From the IMG/VR virus record IMGVR_UViG_3300028800_000105, positions 1 to 59,280 of that record: DNA of 59,280 nt. One strand, given 5' to 3'. The stretch is from a virus. Made by a program: the position numbers and the translations under genes. This document shows positions 12,489-59,046 of this stretch, one piece after another; positions within the stretch are counted from its first letter, which is position 1, and each line of letters opens with the position of its first letter. The notes under the pieces are model-generated. The model saw only the letters and a program-made list of their open reading frames with translations. It was not told the origin of the DNA and ran no database searches.

Positions 12489-13298
12489 TCAGTAGTTGAA
12501 GACAAGCTGCCGCTCACAATGGGCAGCGTCGATGTTGCTCAGATCCATCCCGCCCAACGACAGCCGCTTCCCGTTCAGGAACTCACGGTTCAGATCGTAG
12601 GCCGCGAACGGGTACGTCTCGCCGTGACGGTTGCGATGGGTGGTGTTCACGATGTTCGCAGGAATGTTGACCAGACAGCTCTCCTGGTAGATGCCCGTCA
12701 GTTTCTGACGTGCGCTCTTCGTTGCTTTCACAAGCACGTCTTCCAGCTCGTTCGGGTTGGAGAACTCCTTGCCCCAAAGCAGCTCCTGCAGATCGTCGCG
12801 CCGCCACACGTTCCCGTCCAGGGACGCCGGGTAGCCGAAGTCCCACTGGCCGCTCCGCCAGATGTACTTGAGCATGTCGCCGCTGACTTCCGTCCCGGAG
12901 GGCGTCATCTGCTCGCAGCGCATCGGGTAGCAGTAGGTGGTGTTGCCGCCCAACCTGAGCGAAACGGTCAGCAGATCAGGGTCGGCATCGAGGGCCTCCT
13001 GCGGGTAGGGGACGTAACGGAACGGCCGGTAGAACAGGTCGTCGTCGGTCAGGAACGCGACATGCGACCAGTGGCTGTCCAGGATCTGCTTGGTGTCGTT
13101 GAAGAAACCCTGCTGGGGGATCATCAGCGTCTGCTGGTGCAGCTCAAAGATCAGGTCGTAGCCCTGGTCGAACTCCGAGGCGGTCGCCTTGTAGAGCACA
13201 ACAACGCTGGCGAACAAACCATTGAAGTTCTTCAGTATCGAATTAAGCAGCAGGTCGAGCTGGGCTGGCCTGTCCTTGCTGAAGATGATCGCTCTCAA
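12489..13298 (-). CDS. Putative GT-A glycosyltransferase (269 aa)
   Basis: The start MRAIIFSKDRPAQLDLLLNS and the acidic block LTDDDLFYRPF at about residue 80 fit a GT-A enzyme with a metal-binding DDD. The gene carries one perfect copy of the 15-bp palindrome (12696-12710), read in frame as RQKLT. It is the only structural-operon gene with the palindrome, which otherwise marks the right arm. Confidence 0.78.
   Translation of the reverse strand: MRAIIFSKDRPAQLDLLLNSILKNFNGLFASVVVLYKATASEFDQGYDLIFELHQQTLMIPQQGFFNDTKQILDSHWSHVAFLTDDDLFYRPFRYVPYPQEALDADPDLLTVSLRLGGNTTYCYPMRCEQMTPSGTEVSGDMLKYIWRSGQWDFGYPASLDGNVWRRDDLQELLWGKEFSNPNELEDVLVKATKSARQKLTGIYQESCLVNIPANIVNTTHRNRHGETYPFAAYDLNREFLNGKRLSLGGMDLSNIDAAHCERQLVFNY
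12696..12710. repeat. 15-bp palindrome, perfect copy (in gene)
   Basis: CGTCAGTTTCTGACG inside the glycosyltransferase 12489-13298, encoding RQKLT on the minus strand. It is the only copy left of the divergent control region. Confidence 0.9.
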
Positions 13299-13513
13299 TG
13301 CATATGTCCATTCTCGGTCGCATGCTTTTTGCAGGCCTTATGCACAGTCCCCTCGATCGGGACCTGGCCCTGGCGGATGTAGCAGTAGAAGCAGCGGTTA
13401 TGCCAGAGATGCCAGAGCACAGTTGACCAGCCACCAATCGCGATGAACGACGTGATCCACTGCCAGTAGTTGGCACCTTCGTTGAACCAGTATTGGTGGT
13501 TCAACCAGTGCAT
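13295..13513 (-). CDS. Small membrane protein with zinc-knuckle-like tail (72 aa)
   Basis: An aromatic hydrophobic segment (WITSFIAIGGWSTVLWHLW) is followed by a Cys/His cluster (CFYCYIRQGQ ... HKACKKH). The start at 13513 gives MHWLNHQYW. It lies within the sugar cassette with a 4-bp overlap to 12489-13298. It could anchor a cassette enzyme at the membrane, but there is no direct support. Confidence 0.7.
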   Translation of the reverse strand: MHWLNHQYWFNEGANYWQWITSFIAIGGWSTVLWHLWHNRCFYCYIRQGQVPIEGTVHKACKKHATENGHMH

Positions 13514-13717
13514 TCACACCGTTTCCTGCTCGACCCGCTGGATGTCTTCCGGCCACAGCTTGCGCCACACCCGCCCGTCCAACACCTCGTAGACCAGCTG
13601 GGGCTGGGAGAACGGCGGGCGTTTGTCGAGCGTCTTCTTCACGTCCCGGTGGTCGGCGGTGATGGTGCCGCCCCCGGCCGCGTCGGTCAGGGTGAAGATC
13701 CATTTAAAGTGCAGCAT
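13514..13717 (-). CDS. Hypothetical protein (67 aa)
   Basis: It starts MLHFKWIFTLTDAAGGGT and overlaps the preceding glycosyltransferase by 14 bp. It is soluble with mixed charge (RRVWRKLWPED type C-terminal region). Nothing recognisable; retained because of tight packing and good coding character. Confidence 0.65.
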   Translation of the reverse strand: MLHFKWIFTLTDAAGGGTITADHRDVKKTLDKRPPFSQPQLVYEVLDGRVWRKLWPEDIQRVEQETV

Positions 13718-14306
13718 CGGTTTCCTCCGGTCGGATGTGGGCGATTACCTCTGGTGCCCAGGTCGGTTCGCCGTAGATTGCCTTCAGCCCCTTCGCGTAG
13801 TCAAGATCGCCGGAGTAGTGCAGGCCGAAGCGGGAGTCGGACTTGCGGGCGAAGATCATCGGGGTGCCCACGTCGCCATGCATGATCGTTTTGTATCGCC
13901 AGCAGGTGATGCCGTCGGCGTGGCTTCCCGGCCCGAACTCCATCTTGAAAATCACGAAGTCGTGCTGGATGTACTTCCTTAGTGTTTTGATCGCTCCGGG
14001 TGCTGCCACGTCGTCGTCGTCGATCGTCCAGACGTGCGAGGTGTCCACGAAACGGTCGAGCGCCATGTTGCGCAGCGGGTGGCCCCAGTTGCCCTGTTCG
14101 GTCTCCCAGGCGTAGGTCCAGACGGGGAGCGGGAACTCGCGGGCCAGCTCCTGGCAGAGGAACTCGACGTGTGGCAGGTCGCCGTCCACCATCACGACCA
14201 CTTCGTCGTTTCCGCTCAGGTCGGGCAGGAAGGAGCGCAGGCAGCGCTCTAACGTCGGACGGCCGATGGTGGGGACGATGACGGTGATCGCTAGCGGCTC
14301 AGCCAT
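13704..14306 (-). CDS. Glycosyltransferase family 2
   Basis: This 200-aa minimal GT2 enzyme begins ITVIVPTIGRPTLERCLRSF. It has VVVMVDGDLPH and the metal-binding run WTIDDDDVAAPGA, followed by RFGLHYSGDLDYAKGLKAIY. The C-terminus is short, suggesting a simple catalytic core. It is part of the sugar cassette between terminase and portal. Confidence 0.88.
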   Translation of the reverse strand: MAEPLAITVIVPTIGRPTLERCLRSFLPDLSGNDEVVVMVDGDLPHVEFLCQELAREFPLPVWTYAWETEQGNWGHPLRNMALDRFVDTSHVWTIDDDDVAAPGAIKTLRKYIQHDFVIFKMEFGPGSHADGITCWRYKTIMHGDVGTPMIFARKSDSRFGLHYSGDLDYAKGLKAIYGEPTWAPEVIAHIRPEETDAAL

Positions 14307-14491
14307 GAGACCCTTTCAACCCGGCCGACGTGAGCGAACCGGAATCCCCTGTTGAGGGCGTATCTGATCCGTCTGCGGTTGGCACGACAGTTGCGACACT
14401 CTCCGCGATAGCCGCCACCGGAGTTCGTGTCTCTGGTGAAGGCAGAAATGGGCTTTTCTTGCTTGCACTCAGTACAAATTGCCGATGTCAC
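14291..14491 (-). CDS. Small zinc-binding protein (66 aa)
   Basis: Two CxxC pairs (CTECKQEKPISAF and CRNCRANRRR) with a conserved K-x-x-K-P-x-x-x-F spacing form a typical phage treble-clef or recruitment zinc motif, often seen beside HNH enzymes. It overlaps both neighbours by 16-23 bp. The role is unknown. Confidence 0.75.
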   Translation of the reverse strand: MTSAICTECKQEKPISAFTRDTNSGGGYRGECRNCRANRRRIRYALNRGFRFAHVGRVERVSWLSR

Positions 14492-19299: not shown

Positions 19300-19510
19300 T
19301 TCGTCGCTGGCAACGTGATCTGTCGCCAGAGCCGACAACTAGTCGCCAGTCGAGGCAACGCTCCGCGTCGCCACTCCTGGCAACAGGGCTCTTGCCTGCG
19401 CTGGCAACGCTCCGCGTCGCCTGCGCTGGCAACGGTCGCGATGCCAGTGCTGGCAACAAACAGCGTCAGTTTCTGACGGTCGCTCACGGTCGCTCCGGAC
19501 GGTCGCTCCG
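19300..19510. repeat. Short direct repeats (GGCAAC / CTCCGCGTCGCC / GGTCGCTC)
   Basis: CTGGCAAC or GGCAAC occurs at least six times, twice followed by GCTCCGCGTCGCC. Next to it GGTCGCTC repeats three times. The arrangement resembles iterons or regulator-binding clusters in the divergent control region. Confidence 0.6.
19464..19478. repeat. 15-bp palindrome, perfect copy
   Basis: CGTCAGTTTCTGACG in the divergent control region, directly after the GGCAAC repeats. Confidence 0.9.
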
Positions 19511-21605: not shown

Positions 21606-21640
21606 AGCCCTCGTCAGTCAGTTACTGACGGGGGCTTTTT
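21606..21640 (+). terminator. Terminator built on a palindrome variant
   Basis: AGCCCTCGTCAGT (21606-21618) pairs with ACTGACGGGGGCT (21624-21636), followed by TTTTT. The stem contains an AGTCAG-TTA-CTGACG variant (21616-21630) of the genome-wide palindrome. Confidence 0.85.
21616..21630. repeat. 15-bp palindrome, variant
   Basis: AGTCAGTTACTGACG within the terminator stem. Confidence 0.6.
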
Positions 21641-22162: not shown

Positions 22163-22192
22163 TTGCAACTGCCCCCACCCTCTTGTTATAAT
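22163..22192 (+). promoter_or_regulatory. Promoter P1
   Basis: TTGCAA (22163-22168), an 18-bp spacer and TATAAT (22187-22192). Six bases later AGTGGGA begins, which pairs with TCCCAC near 22235 to make a 5' hairpin. A palindrome starts 55 bp after the -10 start. The architecture is shared with promoters at 32643 and 51965. Confidence 0.8.
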
Positions 22193-22241: not shown

Positions 22242-22256
22242 CGTCAGATTCTGACG
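22242..22256. repeat. 15-bp palindrome, ATT-centre copy
   Basis: CGTCAGATTCTGACG, 55 bp downstream of the -10 of promoter P1. Confidence 0.8.
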
Positions 22257-22931: not shown

Positions 22932-22971
22932 TTGTGGTTGCCGTCAGATTTCTGACGGCTTCCAGAACGAC
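22928..22971 (+). promoter_or_regulatory. Intercistronic hairpin 2 with variant palindrome 22942-22957
   Basis: GTAGTT...AACGAC outer stem; the tip is CGTCAG-ATTT-CTGACG, one base longer than the standard palindrome. A GGGAGG ribosome site follows. Confidence 0.75.
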
Positions 22972-23824: not shown

Positions 23825-23863
23825 TTAAGGGTGGCGTCAGTTTCTGACGCTGCCCTCAGCTAC
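23821..23863 (+). promoter_or_regulatory. Intercistronic hairpin 4 with palindrome 23835-23849
   Basis: GTAGTT...AGCTAC outer arms, AGGG/CCCT inner stem and a perfect CGTCAGTTTCTGACG at the tip. Confidence 0.8.
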
Positions 23864-24400: not shown

Positions 24401-24442
24401 TAGTTGAAGGTGGCGTCAGTTTCTGACGCTGCCTTGAACTAC
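24400..24442 (+). promoter_or_regulatory. Intercistronic hairpin 5 with palindrome 24414-24428
   Basis: GTAGTTGAAGG...CCTTGAACTAC arms with perfect CGTCAGTTTCTGACG at the tip; AAGGGAG follows. Confidence 0.82.
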
Positions 24443-24922: not shown

Positions 24923-24961
24923 TTGAGGTTGGCGTCAGTTTCTGACGCCTTCCTGAACTAT
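24919..24961 (+). promoter_or_regulatory. Intercistronic hairpin 6 with palindrome 24933-24947
   Basis: GTAGTTGAGG...CCTGAACTAT arms and perfect CGTCAGTTTCTGACG tip; AAGGGAGG follows. Confidence 0.8.
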
Positions 24962-27609: not shown

Positions 27610-27645
27610 TATAATGGGTTATTAACTGATTGTGTAATCAGTTAG
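27610..27645 (+). promoter_or_regulatory. Possible promoter with dyad
   Basis: TATAAT at 27610-27615 has no clear -35. It is followed by TAACTGATT...AATCAGTTA (27623-27644), a 9-bp inverted repeat that could be an operator or a 5' hairpin. Confidence 0.45.
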
Positions 27646-27654: not shown

Positions 27655-27669
27655 CATCAGAAACTGATG
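27655..27669. repeat. Palindrome variant that includes a start codon
   Basis: CATCAGAAACTGATG keeps perfect symmetry with a changed outer base pair. Its last three bases are the ATG of 27667-27900. Confidence 0.75.
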
Positions 27670-29137: not shown

Positions 29138-29259
29138 CCACAGACAGCAACAAGAAACAGTTCTATGACCTTGCCCTGGGTGACTGGTTCCGCTGGAAAC
29201 GAGAAGGCAGGAACTGGTACATCAGAATCCACCACTTCATCAGATGGGGGCCGAAGTGA
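29134..29259 (+). CDS. Small basic protein (41 aa)
   Basis: ATGA coupling. MTTDSNKKQFYDLALGDWFR, aromatic and basic (WYIRIHHFIRW). Its stop overlaps the next GTG. Function unknown. Confidence 0.6.
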   Translation: MTTDSNKKQFYDLALGDWFRWKREGRNWYIRIHHFIRWGPK

Positions 29260-29444
29260 CTCAGCGCACCAAACCAGAAGCGTTCAGCATGACCGAGGGC
29301 GACAGAATCGTTCTCAAGTCAGCGATGGTGCTACGAGGGACGAACAACAAGTCGCAAGTGATGCGCGAGGCGATCCACTACTACGCGAAGCGGCTGCGCC
29401 AGGAAGCAGAATCAGCTCGGAACCAAACCGATGCGGATAGTTAG
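29256..29444 (+). CDS. Ribbon-helix-helix-like protein (62 aa)
   Basis: GTG 29256 overlaps the previous TGA. The segment DRIVLKSAMVLRGTNNKSQVMREAIHYYAKRL has the strand-helix-helix pattern of Arc/CopG-type DNA-binding dimers. It is one candidate binder for the genome-wide palindrome. Confidence 0.62.
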   Translation: MTQRTKPEAFSMTEGDRIVLKSAMVLRGTNNKSQVMREAIHYYAKRLRQEAESARNQTDADS

Positions 29445-30135: not shown

Positions 30136-30185
30136 GTGGCCGCACGCCCTGGAAAGACATCAGGCACAAGAACCCGAGGAGGTGA
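30132..30185 (+). CDS. Tiny peptide (17 aa), possible leader
   Basis: ATGA overlap with the phosphoesterase stop; MSGRTPWKDIRHKNPRR. Its last codons contain the GAGGAGG ribosome site of the next gene, so it may serve translational coupling. Confidence 0.4.
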   Translation: MSGRTPWKDIRHKNPRR

Positions 30186-30189
30186 CCGG

Positions 30190-30687
30190 ATGACCGACGA
30201 ACTAAAGGAACAGATGGATTGGGAGCACGCCGAGGCAGTTGAGGGGAAGCCGCACGGGGTTGTTATCTCAATTCGGCTCGATCCCACAGAGGCCGAACGC
30301 CTGAGGACGCTGGCCTCCGACCTACACCTCAACATGTCCCAGGTTGTGCGAAGGGCGCTTGCCACTTTTGACGAGACCGCTGGAAGATCGCTTTCGCCTG
30401 GTTGCACAGCAACAAGAAGCCGCTGTGGAAGCGGCTCACGCTGTACTGGGGAAAAGTTGAGCCTGATGGCCCAATGCCGTAACACCCACCCTGTTTACGG
30501 ACAGTGCAAGCTGAGCCTCGGGCACCACTACGAGAAGCACATCGGCAGCTACCAGGTGTCACCTGGGGCCTGGAAGGATGCGAGTTGGTTCGACAGCGAC
30601 GGCTACGAACCGTCAGAAACTGACGCTACTCCTCCTCATCAGGAGCGGCCTCTATCTCAGGAACCCGACCACCCAGATCCAACTTGA
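30190..30687 (+). CDS. RHH protein with C-terminal Cys/His extension (165 aa)
   Basis: ATG 30190 after GAGGAGGTGACC. The N-terminal GVVISIRLDPTEAERLRTLA and LNMSQVVRRALATF form a ribbon-helix-helix pattern. After a Ser/Arg/Gly linker, MAQCRNTHPVYGQCKLSLGH resembles a stand-alone phage protein, so this may be a fusion or two genes read together. A palindrome codes for PSETDA near the end. The 3' end overlaps the terminase small-subunit gene on the other strand. Confidence 0.65.
   Translation: MTDELKEQMDWEHAEAVEGKPHGVVISIRLDPTEAERLRTLASDLHLNMSQVVRRALATFDETAGRSLSPGCTATRSRCGSGSRCTGEKLSLMAQCRNTHPVYGQCKLSLGHHYEKHIGSYQVSPGAWKDASWFDSDGYEPSETDATPPHQERPLSQEPDHPDPT
30611..30625. repeat. 15-bp palindrome, perfect copy (in gene)
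   Basis: CGTCAGAAACTGACG read in frame as part of PSETDA in 30190-30687; it ends one base before the minus-strand gene 30626-31090. Confidence 0.9.
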
Positions 30688-31090
30688 AATTGATCGCGCC
30701 GTCATGGTCGCCAGCGAACTCGATGCGGGTGGGCAGGTGGAACTCCTCGGGCATCATGCGTTCCGCGACCCACTGCAGATGCTTGTTGTCCCATTCCTTG
30801 ATGTAGCCGACGATCTCTCCCCGGTGGAACACCGGCTTCTCGTTCGGCTCTAGCGCCCGCCTGATGATCTCGTAGCGTGTCATGCCCTTGATCAGCTCGC
30901 GGGCGGCGTCAAGCTGTAGCTTGAAGTTGGGCGACACCTTCACACGGTTGTTGACGACCGTGGTGTTGACGCCCACCTGCTCGGCTGCCTTCGCGACAGT
31001 GCCGTAGGCGGCGCTGCTGATGTATGCCTCTAGGAACGGCTTCTCCCAAGGCTCAGGATTCTCAGCGATTTCGTTGGAAGGATCAGTCAT
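30626..31090 (-). CDS. Terminase small-subunit candidate (154 aa)
   Basis: The helix-turn-helix-like AAYGTVAKAAEQVGVNTTVVNN is followed by DAARELIKGMTRYEIIRRAL and a C-terminal beta part (FHRGEIVGYIKEWDNKHLQW, INFKLDLGG). Together these resemble small terminases or packaging proteins that bind DNA. It lies on the minus strand inside the plus-strand arm, 13 kb from terL. Another DNA-binding role cannot be excluded. Confidence 0.65.
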   Translation of the reverse strand: MTDPSNEIAENPEPWEKPFLEAYISSAAYGTVAKAAEQVGVNTTVVNNRVKVSPNFKLQLDAARELIKGMTRYEIIRRALEPNEKPVFHRGEIVGYIKEWDNKHLQWVAERMMPEEFHLPTRIEFAGDHDGAINFKLDLGGRVPEIEAAPDEEE

Positions 31091-31349
31091 GCCCGATGAT
31101 GATAGGTTGGCTCAGTTTAGGAAAGAGTACAAGCCGCGCACCAACAAGCAGGTCGGCCTTCGCATGCATGAGGGCGATATCAAGGTTTTGGATGAACTCT
31201 GCGACATGCTCGGAATGGGCCGGGGCGACGTTGTGCGACGGGCGGTTTTCATGCTCTACGGGGCGATGAAGGCAGCGAGCAGGCAGAAGTTCATTTCGCC
31301 AGAATCCCGGCCTGATAAGCGAGTGTCAGGCCAAGAGCCTGATCTGTAG
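31089..31349 (+). CDS. Ribbon-helix-helix-like protein (86 aa)
   Basis: ATG 31089 shares bases with the opposite-strand start of 30626-31090. TNKQVGLRMHEGDIKVLDEL and MGRGDVVRRAVFML fit a ribbon-helix-helix DNA-binding dimer. It is divergent from the packaging gene and convergent with 31291-31464. It could control the minus-strand island. Confidence 0.65.
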   Translation: MPDDDRLAQFRKEYKPRTNKQVGLRMHEGDIKVLDELCDMLGMGRGDVVRRAVFMLYGAMKAASRQKFISPESRPDKRVSGQEPDL

Positions 31350-32642: not shown

Positions 32643-32671
32643 TTGAAAGTGGTGCTCCCAGCTGTTATAAT
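32643..32671 (+). promoter_or_regulatory. Promoter P2
   Basis: TTGAAA (32643-32648), a 17-bp spacer and TATAAT (32666-32671). AGTGGG begins six bases later and can pair with CCCAC before 32713. A palindrome begins 55 bp after the -10 start, exactly as at P1. It drives 32753 and the following genes. Confidence 0.85.
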
Positions 32672-32720: not shown

Positions 32721-32735
32721 CGTCAGTTTCTGACG
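32721..32735. repeat. 15-bp palindrome, perfect copy
   Basis: CGTCAGTTTCTGACG between promoter P2 and the ribosome site of 32753. Confidence 0.9.
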
Positions 32736-34190: not shown

Positions 34191-34205
34191 CGTCAGTTTC
34201 TGACG
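34191..34205. repeat. 15-bp palindrome, perfect copy
   Basis: CGTCAGTTTCTGACG just before the ribosome site of 34221-34394. Confidence 0.9.
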
Positions 34206-34962: not shown

Positions 34963-34977
34963 CGTCAGTTTCTGACG
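34963..34977. repeat. 15-bp palindrome, perfect copy
   Basis: CGTCAGTTTCTGACG between the structured element and the AAAGGAG site of 34991. Confidence 0.9.
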
Positions 34978-37887: not shown

Positions 37888-37902
37888 TGTCAGAAACTGA
37901 CG
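37888..37902. repeat. 15-bp palindrome, one-base variant
   Basis: TGTCAGAAACTGACG directly after the stop of 36907-37887. Confidence 0.75.
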
Positions 37903-40358: not shown

Positions 40359-40747
40359 TGCACGTTCGCTGGTTCGGTCAGTCGTGGGGAGCGCCTGTCT
40401 GCGATCCAGACTACGAAACAGAAGTGCCAGTGGGAACGAAGTGTTTGGAATGCACGAAGGTGATCGGCCTCAATGACAGAGGGGTCGTCACAGCATGCTC
40501 GGATGCCATCTGGGGCCACTGGTCGATGAAGATCAACGGGGTCAAGGTGACGTGCTGCTCATACCATCTGGTCTGCTGGCTGGATCAGGTGATCGGCGGC
40601 GAAATGTCACACAAGATCCGTTCACGGATGGGACGCAACCGAAGCATGGTTGACCCGGAGTTCCAGGAGGCAGCGTCAGTTTCTGACGATGAAGACGTGG
40701 TTCCCGGCCGTGGCTGGGGCAAGAAGGTCGAAGATGCGGAAGATTAA
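40358..40747 (+). CDS. Cys-rich hypothetical protein (129 aa)
   Basis: ATG 40358 after GAGGAGGGG. MHVRWFGQSWGAPVCDPDYE and CLECTKVIGLNDRGVVTACS, with CCSYHLVCWL, suggest a zinc-binding fold like those in phage proteins that read kCl.C...I...D.G. A palindrome encodes ASVSDDED. Function unknown. Confidence 0.7.
   Translation: MHVRWFGQSWGAPVCDPDYETEVPVGTKCLECTKVIGLNDRGVVTACSDAIWGHWSMKINGVKVTCCSYHLVCWLDQVIGGEMSHKIRSRMGRNRSMVDPEFQEAASVSDDEDVVPGRGWGKKVEDAED
40674..40688. repeat. 15-bp palindrome, perfect copy (in gene)
   Basis: CGTCAGTTTCTGACG encoding SVSD in 40358-40747. Confidence 0.9.
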
Positions 40748-42394: not shown

Positions 42395-42409
42395 CGTCAG
42401 ATTCTGACG
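42395..42409. repeat. 15-bp palindrome, ATT-centre copy at a start site
   Basis: CGTCAGATTCTGACG ends 2 bp before the ATG of 42412-42897 and takes the place of a normal ribosome site. Confidence 0.8.
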
Positions 42410-43870: not shown

Positions 43871-44136
43871 TGAAGCTGACGATGTACGACAGGTCGGTGT
43901 TCGTTGAGCTGACTCGGCGCAACCTGGAGGCTTTGCTGATGAAGCTGGACTTGCCGGAGGGCGAGTCGGCCTGCACGATCAGCAAACCGTCAGACGATCA
44001 GAAACTGACGTTGTTCGTGAAGGCTGTCGAGGACGAACAACACTACGAGCAGGAGGGCAGACCTGCAGGGATGATGCATCCGCGTGAAGAACGCAAACTC
44101 ACGAAGCCCACGACGGGCGTTGTGTTCTACCACTAG
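43870..44136 (+). CDS. Hypothetical protein (88 aa)
   Basis: MKLTMYDRSVFVELTRRNLE with an alpha/beta pattern and a basic end (REERKLTKPTTGVVFYH). Contains a degenerate palindrome read as DQKLTLF. Function unknown. Confidence 0.7.
   Translation: MKLTMYDRSVFVELTRRNLEALLMKLDLPEGESACTISKPSDDQKLTLFVKAVEDEQHYEQEGRPAGMMHPREERKLTKPTTGVVFYH
43996..44010. repeat. 15-bp palindrome, two-base variant (in gene)
   Basis: GATCAGAAACTGACG; one arm is intact and the other altered. Confidence 0.5.
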
Positions 44137-46551: not shown

Positions 46552-47163
46552 TTGCTTCAAGAAACAATGATCAAGGCCGTCAACAAGCGCGACCTCGTTC
46601 GCAAACGAGACAACAAGCCGTTCACGCTCTACGAAATCGTTGACCACAACAACGTCAAATGGTCAACCGGCAGGCGCGACCTGGCCGAAGAAGCAGCCAA
46701 CCTGATCGGCAAGCCCGCACAGATCCAAGGGCACGAAGAACAGAACAACAACGGCTACACCAACTACTACCTGGACGACATCTTCCCAGGCAACGGACAG
46801 CCACAACAGCCGCAGTCCACCGACTTCAGGCTCCCGCAGGAGCGCGCACAGACCACCACGGCCTTCCAAGGCCATGTGCAGAACCCTGCCATCACCCAGT
46901 CAGAAACTGACGGTGACAAACAAATCAGGATCATGCGGCAAGCGGCAGCCAAGGTCTCCGCTCTCATCTCACCGTCCGCAACCGAGTTCTGGGCCAACTG
47001 CGACACGCTGCTGAACTACTTCATGACCGGGCAGAAGCCACAGATCGTCCCGATGTCAGTTTCTGACGGAGGCACCACCCAGACCGGCAACAAGTTCTTT
47101 GCCGACCCAGGGCCAGAAGCCGACAAGCCGCTGTTCGACACCGACGACGACATTCCGTTCTGA
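46552..47163 (+). CDS. ssb: Single-stranded DNA-binding-like protein (203 aa)
   Basis: TTG 46552 is next to AAGGGAGG; ATG 46567 is an alternative. The N-terminal half is OB-fold-like (KPFTLYEIVDHNNVKWSTGR, AQIQGHEEQNNNGYTNYYLD). A Gln/Pro-rich linker and an acidic end TDDDIPF match the SSB C-terminal tip that recruits partner proteins. Two palindromes are in frame (SETDG, SVSDG). It is followed by nuclease genes, fitting a recombination/replication block. Confidence 0.8.
   Translation: MLQETMIKAVNKRDLVRKRDNKPFTLYEIVDHNNVKWSTGRRDLAEEAANLIGKPAQIQGHEEQNNNGYTNYYLDDIFPGNGQPQQPQSTDFRLPQERAQTTTAFQGHVQNPAITQSETDGDKQIRIMRQAAAKVSALISPSATEFWANCDTLLNYFMTGQKPQIVPMSVSDGGTTQTGNKFFADPGPEADKPLFDTDDDIPF
46898..46912. 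repeat. 15-bp palindrome, one-base variant (in gene)
   Basis: AGTCAGAAACTGACG encoding SETDG in the SSB gene. Confidence 0.75.
47054..47068. repeat. 15-bp palindrome, one-base variant (in gene)
   Basis: TGTCAGTTTCTGACG encoding SVSDG in the SSB gene. Confidence 0.75.
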
Positions 47164-47982: not shown

Positions 47983-48686
47983 CAAAGTTTCCGATCGAAG
48001 ATCGCGTAAACGTCCAGGGATTAACCGCTGAGGAATGGCCGCAGGAGCTGCCGAAGATCGGCCCGTACTGCGCCGCACCCGGCTGCACACGACCAGCCGA
48101 CCACGCACACCACCTGTTCTCACGCGGGATGATGGGCGGAGCCTTCGACTGGGTTCGCCTCCCGGACGGCCGCGTCACCGGCAACAAGATGCCGCTCTGC
48201 TTCGCCCATCACGAGCTGGTCACAAACAACGAAGTCACCATCTGGTTTGAGCAGTTCAACGGCTTCCAGTGGATCGACAGCAAGTCCGAGTTCCCGCAGA
48301 TGATGAAGTACCAGCCGCCGATGGCGTCAGTTTCTGACGTTGGCGACGACATTCTCTTCCCGAACGTCCCGGTCTTGACAGAAAGCAACGGCCATGTGCA
48401 CGACGAGCGGGCTGTCTGCCCCACCTGTGAGCGCCCGCTGCCGAAGCCGAAGATCGAAAACGACCCGGAGAAGCCGAAAGAGCGCAAAACGTGGGCTGTC
48501 TCGGTGCCAGCAGAGCGTTGGGAGGACGGAGCGGACGTTCTCGACGAGCTTTTGGAGGCCGCACGCGACGAGCTTGACAGGGTGGGCATCAGTTACGGCG
48601 ACGGCAAGAAGGTGAAGTACGCGATCCTGTCAACCGCGCTCGCGCTTTTCGTGCAGCACGCGGATCATGTACTCGCAGACGCATGA
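47979..48686 (+). CDS. HNH endonuclease-like protein (235 aa)
   Basis: TTG 47979 overlaps the previous TGA and follows GGAAGGGG. CAAPGCTRPADHAHHLFSRG then MPLCFAHHELVTNN form an HNH core with Cys and His metal ligands. It resembles phage recombination nucleases with CxxxxC..H.HH. A second CPTCERPLPKP and a helical C-terminus follow. A palindrome encodes ASVSDV. Confidence 0.78.
   Translation: MTKFPIEDRVNVQGLTAEEWPQELPKIGPYCAAPGCTRPADHAHHLFSRGMMGGAFDWVRLPDGRVTGNKMPLCFAHHELVTNNEVTIWFEQFNGFQWIDSKSEFPQMMKYQPPMASVSDVGDDILFPNVPVLTESNGHVHDERAVCPTCERPLPKPKIENDPEKPKERKTWAVSVPAERWEDGADVLDELLEAARDELDRVGISYGDGKKVKYAILSTALALFVQHADHVLADA
48325..48339. repeat. 15-bp palindrome, perfect copy (in gene)
   Basis: CGTCAGTTTCTGACG encoding SVSD in the HNH gene. 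Confidence 0.9.
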
Positions 48687-49139: not shown

Positions 49140-49140
49140 G

Positions 49141-49535: not shown

Positions 49536-49576
49536 AACCCGACGCTGATGTAACCGCTAGTTACCCACCCTGGTAC

Positions 49577-49928: not shown

Positions 49929-50132
49929 GTGGAAGGAAGCACATCACTTACGGGATACCGGGGATCCACCAAGACAGGCTCGTACTCGCTCTACCAGCGG
50001 GACCATGAGCTGATCGAGTGGTGCGCCGAATACCTGGGCTGCAAGAAGTCCGACGTGATCCGCACAGCCGTGCGCACGATGGCAACGCAGCTGGCAAGCC
50101 TGAACCTCAAAGGCACCAAGCCACTTCCGTAA
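49929..50132 (+). CDS. DNA-binding-like small protein (67 aa)
   Basis: GTG 49929 is 8 bp from AAAGG. SYSLYQRDHELIEWCAEYLG and KKSDVIRTAVRTMATQLA have a ribbon-helix-helix pattern. CGTCCACA (about 49892) can pair with TGTGGACG over the ribosome site, which could control translation. Confidence 0.6.
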   Translation: MEGSTSLTGYRGSTKTGSYSLYQRDHELIEWCAEYLGCKKSDVIRTAVRTMATQLASLNLKGTKPLP

Positions 50133-50209
50133 GTAGACACAGACACTACTGAAGTGTTAAAGTAGTGAAGGTGGGCGAAAGCACACCACGACAGGGCAAT
50201 TCAGCCGAC

Positions 50210-50224
50210 CGTCAGTTTCTGACG
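50210..50224. repeat. 15-bp palindrome, perfect copy
   Basis: CGTCAGTTTCTGACG upstream of 50247, about 50 bp after a GTTAAA-type -10-like sequence near 50155. Confidence 0.9.
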
Positions 50225-50246
50225 GTCACGAAAGAAGAGGGGTTGA

Positions 50247-50606
50247 GTGCCAACACCACGCTCGATCAAGGAGCAGATCGCCTCCGGCAACTATGCCCTG
50301 GTCGATCCGCTCGACTACATCATCATCGGCTTCCTGCCCGATGAGGGATCGCTGTTCATGGGTCTCTACCCGAACGGCGAGCTTGTGCCGAACCTGCTCA
50401 AGAAGTTCACAGCCGAGCAGCGCAAGGCGATCACCAGCACCATGCTCTCCGCGAGGCTCCGGGTGCTTCACCTGATGGGCCTTGTCGTCTGCAAGGAGAG
50501 GGGGGTTTCGGCAGGCGGGAAGCAGGTGTGGCAGCGCACAGCCAAGGGCGCTGCGGAACTGAAGAAGTGGAAGGGGGGCAAGAATGGCTCAGCCGACGTT
50601 GGTTGA
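50247..50606 (+). CDS. Winged-helix-like protein (119 aa)
   Basis: GTG 50247 after AGAGGGG. MPTPRSIKEQIASGNYALVD, then MLSARLRVLHLMGLVVCKER and KQVWQRTAKGAAELKKW read like a winged helix (recognition helix and wing). It overlaps the ParB-like gene by 23 bp and may regulate it. Confidence 0.68.
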   Translation: MPTPRSIKEQIASGNYALVDPLDYIIIGFLPDEGSLFMGLYPNGELVPNLLKKFTAEQRKAITSTMLSARLRVLHLMGLVVCKERGVSAGGKQVWQRTAKGAAELKKWKGGKNGSADVG

Positions 50607-51471
50607 AGAGCTGCACGCAGCATCCGAGATCAGGAAGGTGAAGCTGGCCCTGCTCCGGCCGGACATGACCTACCAGCGGGAGTTCTCTCAAGCTCTCGTC
50701 GATGAGATCGCCAACAACTGGGATCTCGTCGCCTCCGAACTCCTGCTCGTCTCCGACCGGGGGCCGCGCAAGGACGAGGAAGTGGATGGCGGGTTGTTCA
50801 TCGTCAACGGTCAGCACCGCACCAACGCGGCCGTCAAGCAGGGGATTCTGGAGCTGGACGCCCGCGTGATCAACCTGCGGGACAGCAAGAAGTTCCCCGA
50901 CCCTGGCAAGGTCGAGGCGATGTTCCGCCTCAAGACGAACGTGAAGTTGGGTGACCGGCCGCTTGAGCGGTTCAAGGCCCAGCTTCGTGCAGGCGACCCG
51001 GAGTCGATGGCGATCGTGAAGCTGCTCGCACGCTACGGGGCAGAAATCAACCAGACCCCCCAGGAGACGGGGATCAACTGCATCGCCACCATCGAGGCTC
51101 TCTACCGGGCGGACGAGACAGGGGCTCTGCTCGGAGAAACACTGGAAGTTGTTCGTGACACTTGGGAGCATGTCGGCGGCAAGAACGCGCAGTCGTCTGT
51201 TCTCAAAGGCATCTTCTGGTTCATCGCCAAACACTCGTCAGAATCTGATCGTGGTCGGCTCGTGACGAAGCTGAAAGGCATCGGCATCACGAACCTGCAT
51301 GGCCGCGCTCGGCAGACGGGGCTGACGATGGGCGGGTCGCTCTGGATCAACGTGTACCGCTCGATCGTGGAGCTGTACAACGAGGGTCTGCGTGAGCGGA
51401 ACCGTCTCTCCTGGATGCTCCGGGGCAAGGCGGTGCTCAGCAAGGGCGGCGCACAAGAGCCGACCATCTGA
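50584..51471 (+). CDS. ParB/Srx-like protein, DUF6551-type (295 aa)
   Basis: AEVRKVKL-like start (ASEIRKVKLALLRPDMTYQR), EFSQALVDEIANNWD and LFIVNGQHRTNAAVKQGI give the ParB N-domain pattern with the G-Q-H-R motif. A helical C-terminal region (GRARQTGLTMGGSLWINVYR) follows. Phage proteins of this type may bind DNA or NTP. It is the second ParB-like gene in the window. Confidence 0.8.
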   Translation: MAQPTLVEELHAASEIRKVKLALLRPDMTYQREFSQALVDEIANNWDLVASELLLVSDRGPRKDEEVDGGLFIVNGQHRTNAAVKQGILELDARVINLRDSKKFPDPGKVEAMFRLKTNVKLGDRPLERFKAQLRAGDPESMAIVKLLARYGAEINQTPQETGINCIATIEALYRADETGALLGETLEVVRDTWEHVGGKNAQSSVLKGIFWFIAKHSSESDRGRLVTKLKGIGITNLHGRARQTGLTMGGSLWINVYRSIVELYNEGLRERNRLSWMLRGKAVLSKGGAQEPTI

Positions 51472-51503
51472 GCCGATAGCTTTCTCCAAACCGAAACAGG
51501 AAG

Positions 51504-51530
51504 GCCCCCCCGTGAGTTAACCGGGGGGGC
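51504..51530. terminator. Hairpin after the ParB-like gene
   Basis: GCCCCCCCG (51504-51512) pairs with CGGGGGGGC (51522-51530). A T-run is missing on the plus strand. Confidence 0.6.
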
Positions 51531-51575
51531 GACCTACTAGGACAAGGGGGGGAGCTGAGGCTTCTTGCAACCCTA

Positions 51576-51923: not shown

Positions 51924-51964
51924 TTGTTGGGGGTGCAGACCCGCAGGCTCCGGCCTGTAAGAAC

Positions 51965-51994
51965 TTGCAAGTGACCCAACTGTATTGATATAGT
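51965..51994 (+). promoter_or_regulatory. Promoter P3
   Basis: TTGCAA (51965-51970), an 18-bp spacer and TATAGT (51989-51994), then AGTGGGAA six bases later, able to pair with TTCCC near 52040. Palindromes follow at 52066 and 52155. It leads the AAA+ ATPase gene. Confidence 0.8.
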
Positions 51995-52065
51995 TCTTGT
52001 AGTGGGAAATCCTTGATCCCTCGCTGACGAGAGCGATCGGTTCCCGCCCCGCGAAAGCCACGGCC

Positions 52066-52080
52066 CGTCAGAAACTGACG
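52066..52080. repeat. 15-bp palindrome, perfect copy
   Basis: CGTCAGAAACTGACG, 77 bp after the -10 start of promoter P3. Confidence 0.9.
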
Positions 52081-52154
52081 CTGGCCCCCACCACTCTCAG
52101 GAGGTTCAGACGACGCAGCCCTAGAAGCACGTCCGCAACCAAAACAGAACCCAA

Positions 52155-52169
52155 CGTCAGAAACTGACG
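52155..52169. repeat. 15-bp palindrome, perfect copy
   Basis: CGTCAGAAACTGACG just before the ribosome site of 52191-53675. Confidence 0.9.
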
Positions 52170-52190
52170 TTCCCCACGGAGAGAGGGCAG

Positions 52191-53675: not shown

Positions 53676-53701
53676 GCCAAGGGCACCGGCCTAGTCAGGG
53701 C

Positions 53702-53753
53702 GGTGCCACCGGATCATTCCTACGGGAGTGAGGGACGGCGCTCCGGTGGCACC
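53702..53753 (+). other. Inverted repeat abutting a palindrome
   Basis: GGTGCCACCGGA (53702-53713) pairs with TCCGGTGGCACC (53742-53753), 12 bp, right after the AAA+ gene. The last base is the first of the next palindrome. Confidence 0.65.
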
Positions 53754-53767
53754 GTCAGAAACTGACG
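53753..53767. repeat. 15-bp palindrome, perfect copy
   Basis: CGTCAGAAACTGACG immediately after the inverted repeat and before 53786. Confidence 0.9.
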
Positions 53768-53785
53768 GTCAGAAAGGAGTTCGGT

Positions 53786-54043
53786 ATGGGCGAAGCGACA
53801 GGCGTCCTGACGATCAAGCGCGGCGACGTGAAGGAGGAGTTCTCCTGGAACGGCGACGTGCAGGATCGTGCGGCGGCTCGTGCGGCGTTCGACTCGGCAA
53901 TGGCGACACCCGGCATGCTGGGCATCGCGTTCAAGTCGCCGGGGAAGGGCGAGCGGGTCAGCTCGTTCGACGAGATCGAGAAGATCGAGAGGGAGACCGG
54001 TGTTGTCTCCGCTCAGGTCACTACGGGACTCGTCGGGGGCTAG
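53786..54043 (+). CDS. Hypothetical protein (85 aa)
   Basis: ATG after AAAGGAG. MGEATGVLTIKRGDVKEEFS, then RAAARAAFDSAMATPGMLGI; a small alpha/beta protein often found in phages. Function unknown. Confidence 0.7.
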   Translation: MGEATGVLTIKRGDVKEEFSWNGDVQDRAAARAAFDSAMATPGMLGIAFKSPGKGERVSSFDEIEKIERETGVVSAQVTTGLVGG

Positions 54044-54533
54044 GAAGGTCAGGAGGGGCGGGGCAGTTGCGACTGTCCCGTCCCCCTACGACCTCAACCC
54101 CATCCCGAAACTGGTCGAGGAATACAAGACCGAAGGCCACCTGACAGTCCAGGCACCCGACGGACAAACCACCTACTACCTGTACCAGAAAGACACCGCA
54201 CCGTTCCTGCACGTTGGCTGGTTCCGGCAAGACACACCATCGACGCGAGACACGCGCTTCGGTGACCGGGTATGCGGCTGGATGAACTCAGGCACCTGGG
54301 GCACCATCGTCCGCCCCAACAACATGGGCTGCGTCTGCGACGAATGCCTCACCGAAGCAGGGATCACAGATAAAGAAAAACGACACCTGCTGGGGATTCC
54401 GGCGCTGGAAGCCGTCCTCGGCTGCATCTTCTCCGGATACCAAATGTGGCGGTTCGTTTGCGGCATGGGGATCAGCAACATGGGCAGCTACAGCGAACCC
54501 CCGATCGCCCACTCACCTACCGACTGGCTTTAG
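54000..54533 (+). CDS. Hypothetical protein (177 aa)
   Basis: The only usable starts are GTG 54000 or TTG 54003, 4-7 bp after GGGAG, inside the previous gene. After a basic start, PYDLNPIPKLVEEYKTEGHL and a Cys-containing second half (CVCDECLTEAGITDKEKRHL) follow. Function unknown. Confidence 0.65.
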   Translation: MLSPLRSLRDSSGARKVRRGGAVATVPSPYDLNPIPKLVEEYKTEGHLTVQAPDGQTTYYLYQKDTAPFLHVGWFRQDTPSTRDTRFGDRVCGWMNSGTWGTIVRPNNMGCVCDECLTEAGITDKEKRHLLGIPALEAVLGCIFSGYQMWRFVCGMGISNMGSYSEPPIAHSPTDWL

Positions 54534-54722
54534 AAGCTCCTCCCGTGGGGGAAGGAGGGCGCAGACAGCCCCCTGCCGGTTGGCTGCGTCACGGGGCGGG
54601 CGGCATTCTGCTCCGTCGCCCGCCCCATCCCTACGGGAGCTAGAACTGGGGGCCTACCAAGCTCGCTTCTCACACCGTAGTGCGGTAGGCTCCCAGTTAA
54701 CCCACACCACCAGAAAGGAGTA

Positions 54723-54737
54723 CGTCAGAAAATGACG
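54723..54737. repeat. Palindrome variant containing a start codon
   Basis: CGTCAGAAAATGACG; the single change from the consensus creates the ATG (54732) of the next gene. Confidence 0.7.
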
Positions 54738-54938
54738 TTAACCCAGATTCAGGAAACAGTCGAAGCCCCGGCTGAAACGACCACTGTCAGGGTCGAACCG
54801 ACCCCCGTCCAGGCAATCATCAACGATATGATCTCGCTCGCCCGAGGGGGCCGCTGGATCCAGTCCCGTACTACCGACGGACGGGGCCACTACTGCACCG
54901 CAGGGCTTGCTCAGAAGGCTCTCGGGTGGCTTCGGTAA
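54732..54938 (+). CDS. Hypothetical protein (68 aa)
   Basis: ATG 54732 lies inside a palindrome variant; AAAGGAG is 11 bp upstream. MTLTQIQETVEAPAETTTVR, then AIINDMISLARGGRWIQSRT and a Cys. Function unknown. Confidence 0.65.
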   Translation: MTLTQIQETVEAPAETTTVRVEPTPVQAIINDMISLARGGRWIQSRTTDGRGHYCTAGLAQKALGWLR

Positions 54939-55393
54939 ACACCTGGCAGATGATCCTGGGTCCCAACGCGACCCAGAAGATGGTCGATCAGATGAACGCC
55001 AAGGACCTGATCGAGAAGATCAAAGCCGGTGAGCAAGCACCGATCACGGTTCACATCGACACGCTCGGCACGGTCACCACGTCAGGGACCACCCCCGCAG
55101 GGGTGAAGGATCTGCAGAAGATGGCCGACCTGAAGCTCGATCTTGGCCCCATGTATGCCATACCAGTGATCCCAGGCGAAGAAATACGCACCTACCAGCA
55201 GGTGATCAGCGCACTCTCCAGGGCGATCCCACCCGAATGGGTGAAAGAACAAAAAGAGCGCAACCCCCAGCGAGAGAAGTGGCAAGCCGACGCCTGGGTT
55301 GTTCAGTACAACGACGACCCGCAGACAACGCTCGACGACATAGTGCAGTGGTACGAACGAGCGATCCTGCTCATCGGCCATCCTGAGAACTAG
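54926..55393 (+). CDS. Hypothetical protein (155 aa)
   Basis: GTG 54926 overlaps the previous gene by 13 bp. MASVNTWQMILGPNATQKMV, helical N-terminal half and a C-terminal part rich in Trp and acidic residues (WYERAILLIGHPEN). Function unknown. Confidence 0.7.
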   Translation: MASVNTWQMILGPNATQKMVDQMNAKDLIEKIKAGEQAPITVHIDTLGTVTTSGTTPAGVKDLQKMADLKLDLGPMYAIPVIPGEEIRTYQQVISALSRAIPPEWVKEQKERNPQREKWQADAWVVQYNDDPQTTLDDIVQWYERAILLIGHPEN

Positions 55394-55422
55394 CCGGGGT
55401 GTGAAAGCCACCCCAATGCTGA

Positions 55423-55566
55423 TTGTCTAAAACAGACGCCAAGCGTGAAAAGTCAGAGCGCAACCAGTTCTACGCGATGCGCTACAAGCAACGAGAGTGC
55501 GAACGGTGCAAGCACCGGTCGAGCAGGCCAGGCAAGTGCAAACTCTGCGACGGGAGGATGAAGTGA
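55423..55566 (+). CDS. Small zinc-ribbon protein (47 aa)
   Basis: TTG 55423 follows an in-frame TGA directly. MSKTDAKREKSERNQFYAMR, then CERCKHRSSRPGKCKLCDGR gives two CxxC pairs. The ribosome site is weak, but the zinc pattern is convincing. Confidence 0.55.
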   Translation: MSKTDAKREKSERNQFYAMRYKQRECERCKHRSSRPGKCKLCDGRMK

Positions 55567-55607
55567 TGAGACCAAGTAAGACGTAACACTCCCAAGAGGG
55601 GTCTCAT

Positions 55608-55868
55608 ATGCAGAGGTGGCACAGCCAGCGCGAAGAAGCGATCATGCTCAAGCGTTGGAAGCACGAAATGGAGTTGCACAGGTACGACTGGCGTTGCCCG
55701 CCAACGGACGCGAAAGCCTGCCATTGTGCGCGTGGCAAAGGTTCGATGCGGAAACGGACGCCGTATACTGAGCATCACGCAAGCTGGCGCAGCTGGTGGA
55801 ACGAGTCCAGCAGGAAGCGCTTCAGGCATCAGAAGCACAAAGCAATCGAATACGAACTTAAGGCGTGA
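55608..55868 (+). CDS. Very basic protein (86 aa)
   Basis: ATG 55608 after AAGAGGGG, inside an ATGAGACC/GGTCTCAT inverted repeat (55567-55605). MQRWHSQREEAIMLKRWKHE; Arg/Lys/His/Trp-rich to the end. Possibly nucleic-acid-binding. The downstream RNA element starts at its stop. Confidence 0.6.
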   Translation: MQRWHSQREEAIMLKRWKHEMELHRYDWRCPPTDAKACHCARGKGSMRKRTPYTEHHASWRSWWNESSRKRFRHQKHKAIEYELKA

Positions 55869-56391
55869 GGCTGGGGTAAGCGCCACGAGGGGGCCGCTGT
55901 CACCGAAAGGTCGGCCGTTGATCGTGGACGAATCCCCGACCGGGCCAGTATGAGCTACCACGATCGCTCAGCTGGCACAGGCGAATACCCCAGCCTTACG
56001 AAAGAGGGGCACCCGTGTACCGAGCAGTTGGAGCGGGGGCCTTGGCTACACGGTGTTGATGGTTAAGCGCCCCTGCGGGGGAGGAACGCCTCTGGCTGTC
56101 GAGCTACCAATGACGGAGCTGAGAAATTGGCACGTTCTCTTTCTCACGCGGCAAGACCGCAAGGTTCCCGAGGAAGCAGCCGGGTAGCGGCCGCAGGTTC
56201 TCAGATCCCTATGACAACCGATGGACTACGTGACCTAAGTAGCCTTACGGAGCCTCGCTCCGTCGATCGAGTGTTAACTCGTGGATAGGCGAAAATGGTG
56301 AGGTTTAGGATCAACCGTGCATAGGGGCGTCACACTGGAACCTGCGGTCATTAACTTAGAAGTCTGGGGTCTGACGGCTCTCTCCCCAGAG
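55868..56391 (+). ncRNA. Large structured non-coding RNA candidate (about 520 nt)
   Basis: No convincing ORF. AGGCTGGGGTA (55868) pairs with TACCCCAGCCT (55986), 11 bp, closing a domain with GATCGTGG/CCACGATC and a GAAA tetraloop (ACC-GAAA-GGT). Other helices are CCGTGTA/TACACGG (56013/56047), GCGG-CAAGA-CCGC, ACGGAG-CCTCG-CTCCGT, and a long-range 9-bp CCGCAGGTT/AACCTGCGG (56191/56339). A strong terminator follows. It does not match tmRNA, RNase P or intron cores that I know; GOLLD or ROOL relatives should be tested. Confidence 0.6.
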
Positions 56392-57856: not shown

Positions 57857-58146
57857 TGATGCTCCCTCCCGCAGCGCGTATTTCGCAGCTGGTTGGTTTG
57901 AGTGAGGTAAACCTCTTTCCGCAGGGCTTTATCGGCTGGGTCGTTGAAATGATGCGGGCCAAGGTAGGCAGTCGTCAGGTTCTGAACGATCACGTCGATG
58001 ATCTGATTGTGTCTGCCGCACGCTTGGCCGTCGGTGTTGCGCAGATCAATCGTGTTCCACAACGTGACAGCTGCCAAACAAAAGATCAAACAGAGGTTCG
58101 TGAAAGCCATCCTCGTAGTGAGGAGGAACGGTGGAGCGCCCTTCAT
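57853..58146 (-). CDS. Membrane-anchored small protein (97 aa)
   Basis: ATG 58146 is chosen by its overlap with the previous TGA. MKGAPPFLLTTRMAFTNLCL leads into one membrane helix (AFTNLCLIFCLAAVTLW). The rest is polar with several His/Asn. A spanin-like or accessory lysis role is possible. Confidence 0.65.
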   Translation of the reverse strand: MKGAPPFLLTTRMAFTNLCLIFCLAAVTLWNTIDLRNTDGQACGRHNQIIDVIVQNLTTAYLGPHHFNDPADKALRKEVYLTQTNQLRNTRCGREHQ

Positions 58147-58367
58147 TTTCCCTGCGCGATCACCAAAAGGGTCGCAAGGATCGCCAAAATACCGATGAAG
58201 ACAGTCCCGAACAGCCACCGCTGGTAGGTAGAGAGCGCCCTTGAGCCAGCCTGCGCAGCCAACAACGTCTTCACATCAGCCTTAATCTCACCCACGTTGT
58301 CTTCTATCGGCTTGGTTATCAAGTAAAGCTCGCGACGAGTCACGTATTCTCCGTTCCCCTCGGCCAC
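58143..58367 (-). CDS. Membrane protein, possible holin (74 aa)
   Basis: A charged coiled-coil start (ITKPIEDNVGEIKADVKTLL) is followed by a C-terminal membrane helix (FGTVFIGILAILATLLVIAQ). This layout resembles XhlA-type hemolysin/holin partners. Confidence 0.75.
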   Translation of the reverse strand: MAEGNGEYVTRRELYLITKPIEDNVGEIKADVKTLLAAQAGSRALSTYQRWLFGTVFIGILAILATLLVIAQGK

Positions 58368-58380
58368 GGATTGACTATCG

Positions 58381-59046
58381 TCAGAGAGGCTTCTTGCGAT
58401 TGGCCAGGAACTGTGCGTAACGCTTCCACCAGTCCAACGGGATACGCCGAGGTACGTTAGGACGAACGACAGGATTCCTCTCCCCGTACTTCCTCCAAGG
58501 GCCCTCCCCTAAACGCCACGCCGTCCACGAGTAAAACCCCGTCATTGCACGGAGTTTGTCCTGCGGGGTCGGCGGAGGCTCCACGATGTGCAACGTCAGA
58601 AACTGACGTGGCCTCGGATCCTGAGACAGGTTGTACTTGTTCGGTGCACCCTGACGGCCGAAGCTCCACAGCAGCGGATCAGCACCATCCTGCAACACCA
58701 TCGTCGCGTGATCCTCCCCGTCAACGCCGAAGGTGATGATGTCGCCAACCTCCAGCTCCTCCGGGGCGTCCACATGGTGCAGCTTGATCCACAGCGTCTG
58801 CGAGTTCCCATACGGCCCCCAGTCGTTCATCATCGGATCCGGGGCACCCGGCGACCACCGGCAAATGTACTGAACGCCTTTACTACAGTCTCCCCTGACA
58901 TGCTGGCCGGGATGCCACGGCGGAGGCGGCACCGGCATCGGCCTGACAGCCTCATACGTCCAGTCGCCACGAGACTGCTCGTCCGCCAACGTCTCATACA
59001 TCAGCAGCTGCATCTTCGCCCGGATCGGAGGCAACGGAATCGTCAC
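58381..59046 (-). CDS. CHAP/NlpC-like endolysin (221 aa)
   Basis: VRGDCSKGVQYICRWSPG carries the candidate Cys, LEVGDIITFGVDGEDHATMV the His, as in NlpC/P60 and CHAP amidases. A palindrome encodes RQFLT in the middle. The C-terminal 60 residues are basic and may bind the wall. First complete enzyme gene of the lysis operon. Confidence 0.82.
   Translation of the reverse strand: MTIPLPPIRAKMQLLMYETLADEQSRGDWTYEAVRPMPVPPPPWHPGQHVRGDCSKGVQYICRWSPGAPDPMMNDWGPYGNSQTLWIKLHHVDAPEELEVGDIITFGVDGEDHATMVLQDGADPLLWSFGRQGAPNKYNLSQDPRPRQFLTLHIVEPPPTPQDKLRAMTGFYSWTAWRLGEGPWRKYGERNPVVRPNVPRRIPLDWWKRYAQFLANRKKPL
58594..58608. repeat. 15-bp palindrome, perfect copy (in gene)
   Basis: CGTCAGAAACTGACG inside the endolysin gene, read as RQFLT on the minus strand. 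Confidence 0.9.

Follow-up and report, generated by a model that had tools for sequence, protein, structure and literature searches.

Dispersed regulator sites, in which one short DNA word recurs at many places along a genome, have been described in only a few groups of phages, where they are mostly linked to lysogeny. The cluster A mycobacteriophages, such as L5 and Bxb1, carry stoperators in up to ~30 dispersed copies per genome, with a word that varies by immunity group (PMC6550527, PMC9283540). In the cluster K phages, the start-associated sequences (SAS) and extended start-associated sequences (ESAS) are repeats found largely in the non-structural arm, at gene starts; their binder is unknown, and the ESAS inverted-repeat sequence differs between subclusters (PMC3203893, PMC11373665, PMC12699233). 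Bacillus phage SPbeta has SPBRE, a 15-bp element that recurs at several promoters and is read by one master repressor, MrpR, which was found only decades after the element itself (PMC10516654). Here we describe an array of the palindrome CGTCAG-N3-CTGACG in a 59,280-nt stretch of DNA from an uncultured bacterial virus (IMG/VR record IMGVR_UViG_3300028800_000105, the whole of which is referred to below as the window). Exact copies number 27 in the window, where dinucleotide shuffles predict 0.03, and chance repetition was rejected on that ground. In our judgement there is about an even chance that these palindromes are operators for a single phage-encoded homodimer, most likely of the ribbon-helix-helix (RHH) type, that would repress the early genes as a road-block.

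The centre of the 27 exact copies is made of A and T throughout and reads on the plus strand as AAA in 14 copies, as TTT in 11 and as ATT in two (22242 and 42395; positions are those of the window unless another genome is named), and since AAA and TTT centres are both common the array has no orientation preference. Spacing is rigid, with a 3-base centre in these 27 copies and a 4-base centre in one, CGTCAG-ATTT-CTGACG at 22942, which has a 1-bp insertion in the centre where a sister contig (G001, described below) has the 3-base form. Positions 22942-22957 are a ready-made natural spacing variant, N4 in the window and N3 in G001. About eight looser copies (21616, 27655, 37888, 43996, 46898, 47054, 51236 and 54723) bring the overall total to ~36. 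A first-pass annotation, made by a model from the sequence and its open reading frames, had reported 25 perfect copies with AAA or TTT centres, about 36 copies in all and a single one, at 12696, to the left of 19.4 kb; its counts and coordinates were right, the two ATT-centred copies are additional, and 22942 had not been singled out there as a site with a longer centre. At position -2 A is preferred (28 of 54 half-sites), from which the site may reach up to 19 bp. The flanks are otherwise not conserved, save that a longer inverted repeat flanks four of the copies, at 22.5-25 kb, and mobile elements resembling repetitive extragenic palindromes (REP) or miniature inverted-repeat transposable elements (MITE) were rejected for this reason; intrinsic terminators were rejected as well, a terminator-like hairpin being present at 21616 only. 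As a control, 586 kb of other viral contigs, in 57 stretches, were scanned, in which no gapped palindrome with 6-bp arms exceeded three copies; 10-kb pieces of the early arm of the present genome hold 5-10 copies each. Two control stretches, L054 and L074, each contain TGAGAA-N3-TTCTCA three times, possibly another palindrome array. A fixed arm sequence, rigid spacing and an A/T centre in either orientation are what a site bound symmetrically by protein on DNA would show.

Contig G001 (IMGVR_UViG_3300028563_000026) is 99.9% identical to window positions 19674-59280, runs 16.6 kb further (its positions 39612-56254) and then overlaps window positions 1-406. Because G001 overlaps both window ends, the two were joined there into one circularly permuted phage genome of 75,923 bp, called A. 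The late arm of A (the first 19 kb of the window together with the additional 16.6 kb) lies mostly on the minus strand and contains terminase, portal-like, capsid and long tail genes. Many small genes make up the early region, which is mainly plus-strand. Within the early 37 kb (19.2-56.2 kb), which make up 49% of A, lie 25 of the 27 exact copies; the early and late boundaries, like the gene calls, come from a simple custom caller and are approximate. Of the 33 exact or one-mismatch copies, 20 are intergenic, against 8.0 expected from nearby random positions, and nine stand no more than 45 bp upstream of a start, against 2.9 expected. The order at the start-associated copies is palindrome, short gap, Shine-Dalgarno sequence, start. 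The sites had earlier been described as often intragenic, and roughly one third of the exact copies do fall inside called genes, but it is intergenic placement that is enriched. The word TATAAT occurs three times in the whole of A, always in the early region and 49, 39 and 49 bp before a copy (22187, 27610 and 32666, respectively), and two weaker -10-like words (50157 and 51989) precede copies by 46 and 71 bp; the sites are therefore found 3' of promoters, both in leaders and between genes, as well as within some genes. The early promoters at 22187, 32666, 51989 and 50157 also share AGTGGG or GGTGGG shortly 3' of the -10 word, perhaps a second operator.

The mechanism that we propose is that an RHH dimer, or a pair of dimers, would read the two 6-bp arms at their fixed 3-bp spacing by way of the A/T-rich centre. 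It would meet its sites in leaders ~45 bp 3' of several early promoters, between genes just 5' of ribosome-binding sites and sometimes within genes, and since these sites are downstream of promoters the bound protein would act mainly as a road-block there, lowering early transcription gene by gene and not by promoter cover alone. The likely occasion would be the late switch, when early genes are shut off, or else a carrier state without integration, in which they are silenced.

Capsid and portal searches returned many relatives of A. One of these, genome B (~78.4 kb, assembled from overlapping contigs G010, G016 and G025, with G028 across the remaining junction), shares ~70-77% identity with A in its terminase, portal-like and capsid proteins and carries 28 exact copies of another palindrome, CGTAAC-N2-GTTACG; in a word search of both genomes, neither the A word was found in B nor the B word in A. 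The association with starts is stronger still in B, where 19 of 33 sites (2.5 expected) are at most 45 bp upstream of a start, mostly at 14-27 bp and just 5' of the Shine-Dalgarno sequence, and where the 2-base centre is of many kinds. The B word is carried by a third phage of the A/B kind, G009, and by contig G027, from a metagenome shared with G009, which also encodes an RHH homologue. The exact A word is kept in the near-identical G001 and in two copies in G002, and scans with it found arrays in A-type contigs only, and single copies elsewhere, among the viral and genome matches listed. Four relatives that have the capsid module in common with A, namely G012 (71.9 kb), G013 (63 kb), G014 and G015, yielded no repeated palindrome, and none was found in the upstream regions of G012, G013 and G014. 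With the array present, reworded or missing among relatives by capsid module, array and word appear to come and go independently of that module. Conservation in related phages, to which the first-pass annotation had attached importance, is accordingly partial: an array persists in a relative as distant as B, but under a different word, and other relatives have none.

Dispersed early-arm copies that are promoter-proximal or intragenic, together with words that are swapped between relatives, resemble the situation in the cluster A immunity groups (PMC6550527), and the palindromes might be classical lysogeny stoperators, an array through which an immunity repressor silences the prophage. Against this, the sites are symmetric; no helix-turn-helix (HTH) immunity repressor stood out among the early proteins of A in family scans; and a family search of A and B gave no match to PF00589 (tyrosine integrases), PF00239 (serine integrases) or PF13614 (ParA), integrases being detected in the array-less G012 and in the unrelated phage Tunturi_4. 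Since neither integrase nor ParA is detectable in A or B, a role in lysogeny only is doubtful, and we consider this explanation unlikely; lytic shut-off of early genes or carrier-state silencing would be the likelier function in these two genomes. No prophage came up when bacterial genomes were searched with the portal protein, and a near-identity search of annotated phages returned nothing beyond a 43-bp match within repetitive coding sequence.

Palindromes placed near starts or between genes also occur in phages unrelated to A and B. Tunturi_4 is a phage of a cultured acidobacterium, and the text of the paper that describes it has no word beginning with "palindrom" (PMC11924767); its genome carries CTGCACA-N-TGTGCAG in 7 exact copies, and of the 13 sites seen when one mismatch is allowed, seven have a start no more than 45 bp away, where 0.9 would be expected. 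Besides this palindrome array, Tunturi_4 (PP885687.1) contains TCTTGACAC 15 times, which looks like a -35 promoter element in repeated form. Contig G008 has five exact copies of CTACTACACGTGTAGTAG, a palindrome without a centre, all of them between called genes. A search with the B word brought up G031, which carries YGTAAC-N2-GTTACR, seven of its ten copies being 16-35 bp ahead of starts (e.g., 36251, 37395 and 40148), and in which no protein common to A or B was detected. The near-identical words of G031 and B could reflect a shared host factor or convergence. If the former, the palindromes might be bound by a host DNA-binding protein, that is, a host regulator used by the phage, and the occurrence of GTAAC-N2-GTTAC ahead of starts in two phages with no detected proteins in common speaks for this. 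However, relatives with a common capsid module carry different words, G031 could be a chance result of having searched with the B word, and the at least 119 genome stretches that match the A word are, among the matches listed, single matches in diverse bacteria and not arrays; a host binder is, in our estimate, quite improbable.

The palindromes could also act at the level of RNA, if each, once transcribed, formed a short hairpin 5' of the Shine-Dalgarno sequence that was bound or processed to gate translation or to stabilise messages. Most copies do form a 6-bp hairpin in predicted structures, the longer inverted repeat that extends four copies at 22.5-25 kb includes G-U pairs, and many sites are 14-35 nt upstream of starts. 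Yet it is the arm sequence that is fixed and not pairing alone, with a compensatory change seen once (27655), and the rigid spacing, with an AAA or TTT centre in either orientation, is unlike a loop that is read. The many kinds of 2-base centre in B and the palindrome without a centre in G008 tell against a loop as well, and the copies at 12696 and 58594 lie in genes of the opposite strand. We think it distinctly unlikely that RNA hairpins are the basis of the array.

For a phage-encoded dimeric binder, the early arm of A offers as DNA-binding candidates four RHH proteins, a pair of ParB-like proteins and the unassigned protein encoded at 50247 (Table 1). The RHH candidates named in the first-pass annotation are real ones: PF01402 is matched above cut-off in one, just below it in the protein encoded at 31089 and weakly in that at 29256. 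The 49929 protein has a weak match to phrog_876 and an RHH-like helix pair in its predicted model, and its identity as an RHH protein is weakly suggested. A and B have its gene and gene 50247 in synteny, with a palindrome ahead of the 50247 start in each genome. The AlphaFold model of the 50247 protein is poor (predicted local distance difference test score, pLDDT, 45), and a winged-helix assignment guessed by eye is for this reason not claimed; sequence searches of the PDB with the RHH proteins and with 50247 gave nothing meaningful. One RHH gene of B (77048-77296) is itself preceded by a site, 20 bp from its start, an arrangement such as might be expected of autoregulation. Family searches found four RHH proteins in A, three in B and one in the 29-kb array-less fragment G015, and detected none in the array-less G012, G013, G014 and G011, two of these array-less relatives being near-complete. 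The ParB-like proteins had been proposed as binders too, and the ParB_N and DUF6551 domains encoded at 31457 and 50584 would be compatible with parS-like sites for partition or DNA organisation. Homologues of 31457 are, however, present in the array-less G012 and G013, and one of 50584 in the array-less G011; no ParA was found in A or B by the family search; and the sites track gene starts. A ParB-parS system was rejected on the evidence of the homologues and of ParA, and a parS-like role strikes us as very remote.

The dimeric binder acting over the early arm that the first-pass annotation had put forward fits the rigid spacing, the symmetry, the free orientation and the word swap between relatives, the binder itself being a predicted one. 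Several observations weigh against the particular version that we prefer, an RHH dimer that road-blocks early genes. Some copies lie deep within genes with no nearby start, and the recurrence of the B word in the unrelated G031 might point to a host binder. In fold comparison, the 49929 model had RHH neighbours at E above 1 only, and G015 encodes an RHH protein without an array in its 29 kb. The correlation between RHH proteins and the array is weak evidence, because the array-less relatives differ from A in nearly all early genes. RHH proteins were also absent from the family searches of Tunturi_4 and G008 and from a search of G031 with a 49929 profile; as all three have palindromes, an RHH protein is not required for such an array, and other readers would be needed. 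A broader proposal, which we advance as a tentative possibility, is that start-associated perfect palindromes are a recurrent layer of phage control with several origins (A/B, Tunturi_4, G031 and perhaps G008), every one of them with a separate word and dimeric reader, and that in A and B an RHH protein road-blocks early genes singly, without an integration system, word and reader diverging together.

Table 1. Palindrome copies, promoter-like words and candidate binding proteins of genome A, in window coordinates
Feature	Position	Strand	Remarks
Exact site, TTT	12696..12710		only copy left of 19.4 kb; inside late-arm minus-strand gene
Exact site, TTT	19464..19478
Exact site, AAA	19785..19799
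Exact site, AAA	21175..21189
Variant inverted repeat	21612..21630		within intrinsic terminator-like hairpin directly 3' of tRNA-Ile
TATAAT	22187..22192	+	49 bp ahead of site 22242
Exact arms, ATT	22242..22256		in leader downstream of TATAAT
Exact site, AAA	22563..22577		start 28 bp downstream; longer inverted repeat on flanks
Site with 4-base centre ATTT	22942..22957		3-base form in G001
Exact site, TTT	23835..23849		longer inverted repeat on flanks
Exact site, TTT	24414..24428		longer inverted repeat on flanks
Exact site, TTT	24933..24947		start 32 bp downstream
Exact site, AAA	25667..25681		overlaps stop codon of a gene
TATAAT	27610..27615	+	39 bp ahead of variant site 27655
Variant site CATCAGAAACTGATG	27655..27669		double change, symmetric
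Exact site, AAA	28782..28796		stop codon 1 bp upstream
Candidate RHH protein, weak	29256..29444	+	PF01402 14.4 bits, below cut-off, at 29334-29393
Candidate RHH protein	30136..30687	+	PF01402 above cut-off at 30265-30366; placed at 30190 in first-pass annotation
Exact site, AAA	30611..30625		3' end of RHH gene; adjoins TerS
Candidate RHH protein	31089..31349	+	phrog_876 E=6e-7; PF01402 20.1 bits vs 20.5 cut-off, 31161-31247
TATAAT	32666..32671	+	49 bp ahead of site 32721; region divergent from ParB-like gene
Exact site, TTT	32721..32735		start 17 bp downstream
Exact site, TTT	34191..34205
Exact site, TTT	34963..34977		AAAGGAG directly after
Exact site, AAA	36524..36538		start 21 bp downstream
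One-mismatch site	37888..37902
Exact site, AAA	38727..38741		intragenic
Exact site, TTT	40674..40688		near 3' end of a gene; next start 45 bp on
Exact arms, ATT	42395..42409		between stop and following start
Exact site, AAA	43130..43144		intragenic
Two-mismatch site	43996..44010
Exact site, AAA	45277..45291		3' end of a gene
One-mismatch site	46898..46912
One-mismatch site	47054..47068
Exact site, TTT	48325..48339		intragenic
Candidate binder, small RHH-like protein	49929..50132	+	syntenic homologue in B, 39% identity
-10-like TTAAAGT	50157..50163	+	46 bp ahead of site 50210
Exact site, TTT	50210..50224		22 bp upstream of gene 50247; relative B has site at same place
119-aa protein	50247..50606	+	site 22 bp upstream; B homologue 47%, site ~15 bp upstream
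Two-mismatch site	51236..51250
-10-like TATAGT	51989..51994	+	71 bp ahead of site 52066
Exact site, AAA	52066..52080
Exact site, AAA	52155..52169		start 21 bp downstream
Exact site, AAA	53753..53767		start 18 bp downstream
One-mismatch site	54723..54737
Exact site, AAA	58594..58608		minus-strand gene, right-hand edge

Other features of these genomes may be recorded here. The sole sizeable block in which the window and G001 diverge measures ~90 bp (30507-30596); it falls in the 3' portion of an RHH gene and stops a little short of the palindrome at 30611. A run of late-strand genes at window 7-14.5 kb, with the portal-like genes on one side and the terminase genes on the other, is by eye like glycosyltransferases or sugar-related enzymes and is largely conserved in G009 and G010. 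At 75641-76411 of B (minus strand) is a gene that by eye resembles one for a Ku-like DNA end-binding protein.

Among relatives that share the capsid genes, some carry one word, some a second word and some no array, and two essentially complete genomes with arrays have no detectable integrase. The A/B family is a natural experiment on the gain, rewriting and loss of a genome-wide operator set and its reader, and would give defined word pairs for the study of RHH specificity and of whether a protein bound 3' of a promoter might grade expression gene by gene. Because Tunturi_4 has a cultured host, the class is directly testable.

When the array of A is set against the described systems, its likeness to stoperators lies in the dispersed early-arm copies, and the parallel with L5 that had been drawn from the sequence holds in this functional sense. 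Stoperators, however, are asymmetric 13-mers, mostly in one orientation relative to transcription, at which a monomeric repressor stops elongating transcription in temperate phages with an integrase or parABS, whereas the site in A is a perfect 15-bp dyad with centres in both orientations, and no integrase, ParA or repressor of that kind was detected in A. With SAS and ESAS the array shares its location mainly in the non-structural arm and its association with gene starts. The 13-bp SAS is asymmetric and takes in the Shine-Dalgarno sequence, whereas the palindrome of A is symmetric, stands between promoter and Shine-Dalgarno sequence and is also intragenic; in ESAS the inverted repeat is imperfect, spans 17 bp around a spacer of variable length and contains a promoter, whereas the palindrome of A is shorter, with perfect 6-bp arms, a 3-bp centre and promoters 39-71 bp upstream. 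The SAS word GGGATAGGAGCCC has no exact match in A and two 2-mismatch matches, as expected by chance, and membership of SAS was rejected for its absence. SPBRE occupies about ten promoter sites and is read by a protein with a tyrosine-recombinase fold; no PF00589 protein was found in A, a search that a diverged fold could escape. The conserved inverted repeats of phiC31 are symmetric, too, and are bound by a phage repressor, and they differ from the A palindrome in sequence and probably in repressor family. In operators of the CopG, Arc and MetJ type, small RHH dimers recognise half-sites that are short and symmetric, and A likewise encodes RHH proteins, one above the PF01402 cut-off and others below it. 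The RHH repressors known to us act at one or a few promoters, and not at ~30 sites across an early arm. From its arrangement, we file the array of A as a putative dispersed phage operator array, distinct from stoperators, from SAS and ESAS and from SPBRE.

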